Below, piece by piece: positions 19,472 through 23,598 of a stretch of DNA of 33,203 nucleotides. The stretch is from the NCBI GenBank assembly GCA_014879535.1, contig JACSRX010000013.1, positions 1 to 33,203 of the forward strand. The letters run 5' to 3'. The notes below the pieces were generated by a model. That model ran no database searches. It had not been told where the DNA came from and saw nothing but the letters and a program-made list of their open reading frames with translations. This DNA comes from Chthoniobacterales bacterium (GTDB lineage Bacteria > Verrucomicrobiota > Verrucomicrobiia > Chthoniobacterales > JACTMZ01). How positions within the stretch are numbered: the first letter of the stretch is position 1; each line of letters starts with the position of its first letter. Both the position numbers and the translations under genes were made by a program.

Positions 19472-22400
19472 TCAACGCTCGGCTTTCGTCTGCTGCTGCC
19501 AGTCGGGATTTTGTTGCTCCTGTTCCGTCATCACCTTGGAGTCATCCTGCAGCATGGCTGCCAGGCGCGCATCGGGAGCAGCACCAAGTTCCAACGCTTT
19601 CTCGTAGTGGCGTTTTGCAAGGGCGATGGATGGGGGCTTGGCCGTGGCATAAATGACTGCCAGATTGAATTGTGCCTCGGCATAGTCCGGCTTGACCGTG
19701 ATCGCCCGCCGCAACGATTGCTCGGCTTTGCCGAATTGCCCCATCTGGCTTGAGGCGACCCCGAGGTAGTTGAGCGTGATCGCATCGTCGGGCACAGCCG
19801 CATCGGATCGCTCCAGATATTGAACGGCATCCTCGATCCGCCCCTGCTCGATCATGACCGCTCCCAGCGTTGTAAGACTGAAGGCGTCCTTGGGATCGGC
19901 CTTGACCGCCCTTTCCAAGGCCAGCTGGGCAGCCGTCAGCTTGCCTTGGCGGAATTGGGCCACGCCGAGATTGGCCAAGGCCACAACATTGTCCGGATTC
20001 TCTTCGACGAATTTCAGGTAAAGCTCCTCCGCGCGCGAGAAGTTTCCACGGACGAACTCGTCACGGGCCTCGGCAATCAATGCCTGCATTTCCTGGGAAA
20101 GTTCCGTGCTGAGGGACGCGGCGGCCGCGGCAGCTTCCGATGGAGGCTGCTCATCCGGCGAAGCGGGAGCTTGGGCGGTTTCCCCGGCGGGCTGCTCCCC
20201 TGCTTGGGAGGCTTGGGCTTGTTCCCCGCCGTCGGCCGAATCCACCTGCGGCTTGAGCACTTCGATCTGCGCGGTCATCTTGGCGGCATCGGCATCGAGC
20301 AGGGTGACAACCGGGCGCTTGAGCATCTCCTGCTCGGCCGCCGTCAACTCGAGCGTGGGCTGGGCGAGTTCGCTGATTTTTTCACTGAGGGTGTCGGAGC
20401 GGATTTCCAAGCGCTCCAATTCTTCCTGGGCGAGACGGTAAACCTGCTCCCGGCGGGCCTGCTCCTTGATCTGCCGCATGATGATGCCTCGCAGCACTTC
20501 GTTCTCCTGCTGGAGTAGCTGCGCCTCGGCCGCCGTGACATCCCCGAGTTGCACGGCGGCAAGGGCTCCGGTGACCCGGTCATACTCTTTCAACAGCTGG
20601 TCGTTGATGGCCTGCAGTTTGTCGAATCGCAGCTTGTCATCCTTCAACTTCGTTTGGGCATCGGCCAACTCGATCTTCATGCCATCCAAATCCTTCTGAA
20701 GCCCGGCCACCACCTCCGCCTTGGCGGCGGCGTCGCCCTCCAAGCCTGCAATCCGCTCGCTTGCGGCAGCCAGTTTCTCCTCCAATTGGCGGTTGGCCTC
20801 GATCAGCTCGGCATTTTTGTCCAAGGCGGATCTCGCCTCGGAAAGCTCCTGCTGGACAGATTCTCGTGAGGCGATGAGCTCGTCGCGCTCCTTCTCGAGC
20901 CCGGCCACCCTGTCGGTGAGTTCCTGGATCTTCCCGCTGTTGTCCGCAGCCGCGGCCTGCGCAGTCGCCGCGGCCAATTTGTCCTCCAGTTCGCGGTTGG
21001 CCTCCTGGTTCCTTTCGACGGTGGATTTCGCTTCGGCAAGCTCCTGCTGCGCCGCATCGCGCGACGCCAGCAACTCGTCGCGTTCCTTCTCAAGCCCGGC
21101 CACACGGTCGGTGAGTTCCTGAATCTTCCCGCTGTTGTCCGCAGCCGCGGCCTGCGCGGTCGCCGCGGCCAATTTGTCCCCCAGTTCGCGGTTGGCCTCC
21201 TGGTTCTTTTCGACGGTGGATTTGGCCTCGGCAAGCTCCTGCTGAGCAACCTCGCGCGAAGCCAGCAGCTCCGCGCGCTCCTTCTCAAGTTCTGCCACTC
21301 GTTGGGTGAGCTCCTTGGCCGTCTCGGCGTTCTCCTCGCCGGTTTTCTGCTCGTCCACTGCGGCGGAAAGCTTGGCCTCAAGCTGCCGGTTGGCCTCGAT
21401 CAGTTCGGCGTTTTTTTCGACGGCGGCTTTCGCCCCCGCATATTGCTGCTCCGCCGCCTCGCGCGAGGCGAGCAACTCCGCGCGCTCCTTCTCGAGCTCG
21501 GCCACCCGCTGCGTGAGGTCCTTGACGGTGGTGTCCCGCTCCAAGGCTGCCAGCTCTTTGGCCGCGGCGGAAAGCTTGGCCTCAAGCTGCCGGTTGGCCT
21601 CGATCAATTCGGCACTCTTGTCACCGGCACTCCCGGATTCGACAAATCTGCGCTGGGCGACATCCCGGGAGGCAATCAGCTCCGCGCGTTCCCGCTCGAG
21701 CTCGGCCAGACTCTGCGTGAGGTTCTTGATATCCGCACGGGCAGCCTGGACCTCCTTCTGGGACGACTCGCGCTCCGCCTTGACCATGGCTGGTTTCAGT
21801 TTCTCCGTTTCCGCCTTGGCCGATTCCAGCGCAGCCTTGACCTCCGCCATCTGGCTCTCGGATGCCTTCACCCCGGCCTTGGCGGCTTCCGCCTCGGCTT
21901 TGGCCGCCGCCGCCTCGGCCTTGGCGCTTTCCGCTTCAGCCTTTGCCGCCTCCACTTCTGTCTTCGCATCCGTCTCCGCCTTCGCAGCAGTCTCTTTCGC
22001 AGCCTCTTCCGCGGCGGCAAGCTTTGCCGTCAGATCCTCGATTTGCTTGGCGCCTTCCTGTGCCCTGGCCTCGAGCTGCTCCTTGTCGGCGGTCACGGCC
22101 GAGAGCGATTCCTGCAACTCGTCGGCGGCTGCCGTCAAACGTGCGATTTCATCCGAGGAAACAGGGGGCGGTGCGCCGCCCTCCTTGAACTGGCGCAACT
22201 GCGTGGTCAGGTCCACGACGGCGACCTTTGTCTTTTCCAACTCCATGCTCACGCTGAGCAACTCGGCCTCGCCACGCTGGATCTCCCTTTCCAAATCCGC
22301 GGCACGCTGCTTCTCCGCGGACAACTGGCGCCGCAAGATCTCCGTCTGCTGCGACTCCGCGACAGGAGCAGCCACGGCCGGCCATCCGGGAGACACGGGG

Positions 22401-22834
22401 GGGACCGACTCCTGCTGTCCCGGCGAAATGGAAATGGTCGGTCCGGCATGGCCGTTGTCGCGCCGGGGAGGCCGCACCGGGGGCAGAACATCCTCGTCCT
22501 GCACAACGGCAAGATCCGGAGGCGGCCCCAACGTCGGGGAGTCCAAGGCCCCCTCCAGACGAACAATGGCCTCCTGCGTCTTGCGCAGCCGGAAATCCAC
22601 GACCAGCGGCTGCCAATCGGGGTTCTTGGACTTGATCTGGCCGAGTTGGGCCGCCACATAGCGGAACTTGGCGATCGCATCCTGATTCCTGCCCTCCCGT
22701 TCCAGGCGTTCGGCGCGCTGATATTCTTGATAGGCGGAGAAAAATGCGGACGAAACGTCTTCCTGAGCCAATGCGGATCGTGCCGATAATGACACGAACA
22801 GACCAGCCAACAACAGCAACCGCAGCAAATTCAT
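19472..22834 (-). CDS. Secreted long coiled-coil protein with C-terminal TPR repeats
   Basis: 1120 residues. A signal peptide is evident (MNLLRLLLLAGLFVSLSARS, then ALAQ). Residues about 25-100 hold one TPR-like helical pair (YQEYQRAERLEREGRNQDA), then a Pro-rich linker. From about 165 to 800 the protein is almost pure coiled coil, with an Ala/Lys/Glu stretch (AKAEAESAKAEAAAAKAEAE) and about five tandem copies of a 65-69-residue unit (LTxRVAxLEKERxELxASR). An acidic Ala/Gln/Pro linker leads to about four TPRs (GNFSRAEELYLKF, GKLTAAQLALERA, GRIEDAVQYLERS, GQFGKAEQSLRRA). No membrane anchor after the signal peptide. A periplasmic scaffold or spacer is inferred. Start ATG 22834 follows from the signal peptide and promoter. 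It is divergent from the HNH gene. Confidence 0.85.
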   Translation of the reverse strand: MNLLRLLLLAGLFVSLSARSALAQEDVSSAFFSAYQEYQRAERLEREGRNQDAIAKFRYVAAQLGQIKSKNPDWQPLVVDFRLRKTQEAIVRLEGALDSPTLGPPPDLAVVQDEDVLPPVRPPRRDNGHAGPTISISPGQQESVPPVSPGWPAVAAPVAESQQTEILRRQLSAEKQRAADLEREIQRGEAELLSVSMELEKTKVAVVDLTTQLRQFKEGGAPPPVSSDEIARLTAAADELQESLSAVTADKEQLEARAQEGAKQIEDLTAKLAAAEEAAKETAAKAETDAKTEVEAAKAEAESAKAEAAAAKAEAEAAKAGVKASESQMAEVKAALESAKAETEKLKPAMVKAERESSQKEVQAARADIKNLTQSLAELERERAELIASRDVAQRRFVESGSAGDKSAELIEANRQLEAKLSAAAKELAALERDTTVKDLTQRVAELEKERAELLASREAAEQQYAGAKAAVEKNAELIEANRQLEAKLSAAVDEQKTGEENAETAKELTQRVAELEKERAELLASREVAQQELAEAKSTVEKNQEANRELGDKLAAATAQAAAADNSGKIQELTDRVAGLEKERDELLASRDAAQQELAEAKSTVERNQEANRELEDKLAAATAQAAAADNSGKIQELTDRVAGLEKERDELIASRESVQQELSEARSALDKNAELIEANRQLEEKLAAASERIAGLEGDAAAKAEVVAGLQKDLDGMKIELADAQTKLKDDKLRFDKLQAINDQLLKEYDRVTGALAAVQLGDVTAAEAQLLQQENEVLRGIIMRQIKEQARREQVYRLAQEELERLEIRSDTLSEKISELAQPTLELTAAEQEMLKRPVVTLLDADAAKMTAQIEVLKPQVDSADGGEQAQASQAGEQPAGETAQAPASPDEQPPSEAAAAAASLSTELSQEMQALIAEARDEFVRGNFSRAEELYLKFVEENPDNVVALANLGVAQFRQGKLTAAQLALERAVKADPKDAFSLTTLGAVMIEQGRIEDAVQYLERSDAAVPDDAITLNYLGVASSQMGQFGKAEQSLRRAITVKPDYAEAQFNLAVIYATAKPPSIALAKRHYEKALELGAAPDARLAAMLQDDSKVMTEQEQQNPDWQQQTKAER
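20879..21750 (-). repeat. Tandem repeats in the coiled-coil gene, including two near-identical 195-bp copies
   Basis: Measured by the recurring site coding ELxASR (20879, 21074, 21269, 21476, 21680), unit lengths are 195, 195, 207 and 204 bp. The 20879-21073 and 21074-21268 copies are nearly identical at DNA level, including the stretch coding for AAATAQAAAADNSGKIQELT, so this duplication is recent; the other units have diverged. All periods are multiples of three. Confidence 0.88.
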
Positions 22835-22986: not shown

Positions 22987-23598
22987 ATGGAATCCCTGCT
23001 CGACAGGCACGTGCTGGTTCTCAATCGGCTGTGGCAGGCGGTCAATGTCTGCAGTGCACGGCGCGCCTTCACCCTGCTCTACCAAGGCCACGCCCAAGTG
23101 GTCTGGAGGGATCCCGAAAACAACTACCTCACCCACGACTTCCAGAGTTGGCATGATTTTTCGCAGGCCGAGCCCGTCACAGACGTCGTCCACTCGGTGA
23201 AATTCAACATCCGCGTGCCCACGGTGATCGTCCTGCTCCTCTTCGACCGCCTGCCCAGCAAGGAAGTCAAATTCACCCGCCAGAACATCTACGAACGCGA
23301 CAACCACACCTGCCAATACTGCGCCAGGAAACTCGACCGACAAGAACTCAACCTCGACCATGTGCTCCCTCGGCAACGCGGCGGTCCGACCACTTGGGAA
23401 AACGTCGTCTGCTCCTGCATCCCCTGCAACACACGCAAGGGAAATCGCCTTCCCCACGAGGCCAATATGGTCCTCCTCAAGGAACCCAGAAAGCCCCGCT
23501 GGCGCCCGTTCATCCACCTCACCTACTCCTCATCCGTCCACGACACATGGCGACATTTCGTCGATGTCGGATGCTGGAGCGTCGAACTGGGGGATTGA
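22987..23598 (+). CDS. HNH endonuclease-family protein
   Basis: 203 residues. The C-terminal half holds an HNH/zinc-ribbon nuclease fold: CQYCARKL (first Cys pair), LNLDHVLPRQRGG (the catalytic His), TWENVV (the Asn), and CSCIPCNTRKGNR (second Cys pair and last motif). The N-terminal 90 residues (LDRHVLVLNRLWQAVNVCSARRAF and LYQGHAQVV) form the conserved domain typical of the widespread stand-alone chromosomal HNH proteins in Bacteroidetes, cyanobacteria and Verrucomicrobia. Those are not restriction or phage enzymes as a rule, and their role is unknown; repair is possible. Start ATG 22987 has only weak GGAAA upstream. A near-consensus promoter precedes it. Confidence 0.87.
   Translation: MESLLDRHVLVLNRLWQAVNVCSARRAFTLLYQGHAQVVWRDPENNYLTHDFQSWHDFSQAEPVTDVVHSVKFNIRVPTVIVLLLFDRLPSKEVKFTRQNIYERDNHTCQYCARKLDRQELNLDHVLPRQRGGPTTWENVVCSCIPCNTRKGNRLPHEANMVLLKEPRKPRWRPFIHLTYSSSVHDTWRHFVDVGCWSVELGD

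Follow-up and report, generated by a model that had tools for sequence, protein, structure and literature searches.

The 1120-residue exported protein encoded on this Chthoniobacterales contig carries an array of five in-frame tandem units in its coiled-coil region, where nine species of the same genus each carry a single full unit. These data suggest that the coil was probably lengthened from one unit to five in the lineage of this species, within an exported scaffold of coiled coil and TPRs that places only loose demands on length. The window analysed here is the whole 33,203-base contig, from a genome of 3.17 Mb in 97 contigs; a query with the conserved protein recovered eight named records, all of them metagenome-assembled genomes under the names Chthoniobacterales, Chthoniobacter flavus or Verrucomicrobia.

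The coil gene occupies 19472..22834 on the minus strand. Its longest open reading frame runs from 22942 to 19472, and the start most likely lies at 22834 (M37 of that frame), since this methionine is invariant across the eight aligned congeners and a signal peptide follows directly. Residue numbers given below are those of the long frame, from which 36 is subtracted for the 1120-residue protein; a preliminary description had called the protein giant, and it is long but no giant. The signal peptide (22766..22834, minus strand) was recognised from sequence, composition and hydropathy, comprises 23 residues with a cleavage site set by eye, and has no lipobox. The composition of the protein includes zero cysteines, and hydropathy indicates no strongly hydrophobic segment besides the signal peptide. 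The signal peptide fits a predicted periplasmic or extracellular location; the earlier placement in the periplasm is compatible with the sequence, though the periplasm alone is not singled out.

Downstream of the signal peptide, the AlphaFold model predicts an N-terminal three-helix domain of 78 residues (22532..22765, minus strand; pLDDT 91.9), for which no Pfam family was recovered at E values up to 0.1. Foldseek returned MIT- and TPR-like bundles for this domain, with a best E value of 0.017 and none at 0.001 or less; as three-helix bundles match widely, no conclusion is drawn from the likeness to MIT bundles. The domain is present in 28 orthologs; for the 19 of these that lie beyond the genus, identity is 36–50%. 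It is followed by a Pro-rich linker, modelled at low confidence, and then by long heptad-patterned helices. Within the coil, a 21-bp (one-heptad) tandem repeat of 3.3 copies, rich in Ala, Glu and Lys, was identified by TRF at 21874..21943 (minus strand); in the alignment it sits where congeners are shorter or without sequence.

Between the array and the TPRs lies a helical module (residues 770–880; 20303..20635, minus strand) that is 82–88% identical in nine congeners and ranks with the best-conserved regions of the protein within the genus. No Pfam family reached its cut-off there in a scan of the whole protein, and residues 807–916 queried alone returned none at E values up to 0.1. A Pro/Ala linker separates this module from the C-terminal TPR superhelix (19553..20110, minus strand), which is assigned from Pfam TPR families and from sequence and fold matches in the PDB: TPR_17, TPR_1, TPR_2, TPR_8, TPR_16, TPR_19, TPR_11 and TPR_14 all score above their Pfam cut-offs, and TPR folds are matched in the PDB. 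A fold search with the whole model returned mostly TPR and designed proteins among the best 50 of 349 matches at an E value of 0.001. One Pfam match inside the array, to MS_N (malate synthase N-terminal; 26.5 bits against a cut-off of 23.5, with a best stretch of 21 residues), was rejected as a chance match to repeated coil, and the NCBIfam matches (MamA, PilW, SMC and others) all fall far under their cut-offs.

Two adjoining in-frame copies of 195 bp, at 20879–21073 and 21074–21268 on the minus strand, are identical at 179 of 195 positions (91.8%). The preliminary description had reported this pair as a nearly identical tandem duplication. The pair is real, but 8% of positions differ, and the two copies do not stand by themselves: they correspond to units 3 and 4 of the five-unit array. 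The best block at a lag of 195 bp is 216 bp long with 197 identical positions (21289–21074 against 21094–20879, a whole span of 20879..21289, minus strand), and identity at this lag drops sharply at either end of the block. The best 195-bp self-match at lags of 150–259 bp scores 179. When the codons of the gene were shuffled 300 times, the best score reached 91 at most (mean 85), and a chance origin of the match is excluded.

The array extends from 21721 to about 20726 on the minus strand, with units starting at residues 408, 476, 545, 610 and 675. Unit 1 (68 residues) occupies 21518..21721 and unit 2 (69 residues) 21311..21517; units 3 and 4 (65 residues each) occupy 21116..21310 and 20921..21115 and contain most of the first and second 195-bp copies, respectively, in the reading direction of the gene. 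Unit 5 (20726..20920), the end limit of which is set at 65 residues by convention, is the counterpart of the single full unit in an alignment with nine congeners. Relative to the reference copy, the other copies are 61% identical over the whole 195 bp and 74–81% identical over a 78-bp core. The neighbouring spacings of 204 and 207 bp described earlier are confirmed, and a 204-bp period was also detected; however, divergence among these neighbours is uneven, as units 1 and 2 have in common a 50-bp patch (21564..21613 and 21360..21409, minus strand) identical at 49 of 50 positions. This patch is closer than the unit 3–unit 4 pair, contains the longest exact repeat in the array (43 nt), and looks like the product of a later exchange or gene conversion. 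The units also form a mosaic: the start of unit 3 resembles unit 2 (LTQRVAELEKERAEL), the start of unit 4 resembles unit 5 (LTDRVAGLEKERDEL), and the second halves of units 3 and 4, with a shortened NQEANREL, are common to both.

Divergence between units was estimated by Nei–Gojobori counts, using code written for this analysis. Depending on the limits taken, units 3 and 4 differ by a dS of 0.21–0.38 and a dN of 0.02–0.08, the unit dS values reflecting few counts (7 to 12.5 synonymous differences) in short units. The remaining unit pairs have dS values of 0.81–1.82, and the conserved parts of the gene, compared with nine congeners, give 1.3–1.8 in eight cases and saturation in one. Simple division yields a dN/dS of about 0.11–0.20 for units 3 and 4, as expected if they evolve under purifying selection. 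A dS of 0.2 is seldom reached between strains of one species. Units 3 and 4 thus appear to be the youngest whole-unit duplication, yet a fairly old one: the earlier term "recent" holds relative to the other unit pairs only, and at this dS the pair is unlikely to stem from slippage now under way among strains. Two copies that seem new at a glance can prove old once synonymous changes are counted, and gene conversion could make old copies appear younger.

Comparison with relatives, sampled as one genome per species, included 11 genomes of the genus (the present one among them), all 11 of which match the C-terminal part of the protein. Nine of the ten congeners span the place of the array, and each contains a single full unit that corresponds to unit 5, as against five units here; the tenth (G009) is truncated and begins after the array place, while G002, cut by its contig at the C-terminal end, does span it. 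In the unit tree, a branch with ultrafast bootstrap values of 98 (DNA) and 96 (protein) divides the window's five units from those of the nine congeners. Among the window's units, only units 3 and 4 are firmly joined (97 and 95), with values of 52–81 on the other inner branches. The single unit in congeners, together with this separation in the tree, suggests growth of the coil by repeated duplication in this lineage. The genus tree places the species with weak support (48/36), and the sole ground for assigning the expansion to the branch of this species is its absence from the others.

A self-repeat scan of the 29 other orthologs scoring above 200 bits (10 congeners, one of them truncated, and 19 from other families of the order) identified no comparable long-unit tandem repeat; the best self-match of the present gene in the same comparison was 57 of 60 residues at a lag of 65. 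In eight of the ten congeners, the best self-match (16–28 of 60 residues) falls at a lag of 35, the shortest lag that the scan included. This weak 35-residue (five-heptad) self-similarity, observed at loci L033, L034, L035–L038, L040 and L042, possibly reflects an older half-unit duplication, and part of the array may have descended from a half-unit-like stretch upstream of the congeners' unit. Querying 213 genomes of the order with units 1–3 returned matches at 1e-8 in nine, all in this genus and including the present genome; congeners G008 and G009 gave no match at this threshold. Some match to the protein was identified in 54 of 57 relatives, many to the TPRs only, and the loci retrieved from these were analysed further, excluding L014, L027, L029 and L032 as duplicates of L043, L045, L046 and L044, respectively. 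At eight of the ten congener loci, TGT is followed by a small gene, the divergent HNH gene and the coil gene; the remaining two loci are short stretches. The HNH endonuclease gene (22987–23598), divergent from the coil gene, is 84–91% identical and adjoins the coil gene at eight of ten congener loci.

The distance between the N-terminal domain and the TPRs is 804 residues here, 473–519 in nine congeners and 351–767 over the 28 orthologs in which both end domains were found; the family keeps its end domains but not the length between them. Four orthologs of one other family of the order (f13; L043, L044, L045 and L046) have linkers of 576–767 residues with no long-unit repeats detected, which suggests either more than one origin of long coils or their retention. 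The 65-residue unit equals nine heptads plus two residues. Register was modelled with a home-made hydrophobicity score and a Viterbi path rather than a published predictor; the model resets at residues 436, 473, 536, 604, 669 and 717, and the resets at 604 and 669 fall inside AADNSGK, one per 65-residue unit. The register z-score of 10.9 against residue shuffles indicates heptad-like patterning only, and a Fourier peak of the array at 3.43 residues, which partly reflects the repeats themselves, was left unused. The AlphaFold model, a monomer of low overall confidence (mean pLDDT 67.3, pTM 0.27) that is silent on oligomers, breaks the helix within the array at 437–439, 534–538 and 666–670, corresponding to three of the six resets, and places no break at the unit 3–4 junction, where pLDDT is 51–61. 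The preliminary description had held that a broken heptad register at the junctions would count against it; such breaks appear in prediction and in part, the register model resetting at AADNSGK and the AlphaFold helix continuing through the unit 3–4 junction. These models point to a jointed rod, the length of which would be tolerated rather than measured.

With a rise of 0.1485 nm per residue, 65 residues of unbroken helix span 9.65 nm, so that the earlier estimate of about 10 nm per unit stands only as an upper bound. By the same reckoning, about 660 coil residues would measure roughly 98 nm if straight, exceeding usual periplasm widths. This length weighs against a periplasmic ruler or spacer with a defined length, a role that would suit a protein with a signal peptide and long predicted helices linking two folded ends, and that had been proposed for it earlier. 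The interruptions of register and helix that the models place within the array argue in the same direction. A ruler would be expected to keep its length, and the distance between the end domains, which ranges across the family from 351 to 804 residues, does not support a precise ruler. According to a review, spacer coiled coils preserve their length while their sequence diverges (PMC5082667); here the linker varies from 351 to 767 residues in 28 orthologs, against 804 in the window. We consider a ruler very unlikely, and this variation among orthologs removes it as the leading reading.

The tandem units could instead vary in number between strains by recombination, changing how far the protein extends at one end. 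A rod-like exported protein that carries tandem units would lend itself to such variation, and the closer 50-bp patch in units 1 and 2 suggests that exchange went on after units 3 and 4 arose; Periscope Proteins do differ in repeat number between strains (PMC9704523). However, the repeats of those proteins are highly identical in the same account (PMC9704523), whereas the best pair here is 92% identical with a dS of 0.21–0.38, and a longest exact repeat of 43 nt is a poor substrate for frequent recombination. Moreover, the Pfam scan and hydropathy revealed no adhesin domain and no lipid or membrane anchor. Variation of this kind at the population level therefore appears unlikely. A more specific form, in which unit number is strain-dependent and a jointed helical stalk of about 65 residues per unit would determine how far TPR docking sites extend within the envelope, is a slim prospect, kept in view because the 98% identical patch suggests exchange after the duplication of units 3 and 4. 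The units could also be mis-assembled, or their number wrong. The longest exact repeat of 43 nt is below usual read lengths, every unit differs from the others, and the frame is open across all five. An artefact thus seems highly improbable, even for a draft genome of 97 contigs in which identical extra copies could have been collapsed even though repeats are, as also reported, poorly resolved by short reads (PMC9704523).

Serial duplication remains the explanation that we favour. A coil segment of one unit would have been amplified to five in the lineage of this species, likely through a series of tandem duplications that arose when imperfect copies underwent unequal exchange, as the mosaic of the unit 3/2 and 4/5 starts and the common second half of units 3 and 4 suggest. 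The unit 3–unit 4 pair would represent one of the later duplication steps, and the patch common to units 1 and 2 would reflect exchange or conversion after that. The protein itself may form a jointed helical rod or linker bearing TPR docking sites, in the periplasm or extracellularly. Nine species with a single full unit, set beside a tenth that has five, offer a clean before-and-after case of how a bacterial coiled coil would lengthen by serial duplication in an uncultured group.

The nearest known kind of system is intragenic tandem-repeat expansion in rod-like proteins. Streptococcal M protein is a coiled coil, and its intragenic repeats reportedly recombine with one another; to judge by the title of that study, it resembles the present protein as a rod whose in-frame tandem units would stem from recombination among repeats within the gene. 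In the present case, unlike M protein, variation is observed between species only, in an uncultured environmental lineage, with copies 92% alike at best and no surface anchor found. CpoB (YbgF) of the Tol-Pal system resides in the periplasm and has TPRs after a coiled coil, an architecture similar to that described here, although the coil here is far longer. Membership in that group was rejected: no CpoB or TolA-binding family appears in the Pfam and NCBIfam lists up to an E value of 1, and the scanned neighbours include recognisable genes for HNH, TGT, amidohydrolase and IlvD, but no tol-pal genes. A literature search identified no paper on this coil protein.

Omp-alpha of Thermotoga maritima, described as an outer membrane protein forming a 50-nm rod across the periplasm, is likewise an exported long coil (PMC5082667). 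Unlike Omp-alpha, the present protein has no outer-membrane domain that could be found, its ends being a helical bundle and TPRs. Periscope Proteins offer a further parallel, in that a stalk of tandem units is expected to follow unit number in its length. These surface proteins are described as monomers whose repeat domains are highly identical and fold individually, and the class leaves out multimeric coiled-coil stalks, for example trimeric autotransporters (PMC9704523). The highly identical tandem repeats of that class are absent here, the best adjacent pair having 91.8% DNA identity, and the prediction, in a low-confidence monomer model, that the units form long helices with a heptad-like pattern argues against individually folding domains. 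If unit number did prove to be strain-dependent, the protein would be a coiled-coil counterpart of the Periscope Proteins. Under serial duplication, the gain of coil represents an ordinary route of lengthening for proteins of this sort, and no new kind of system.
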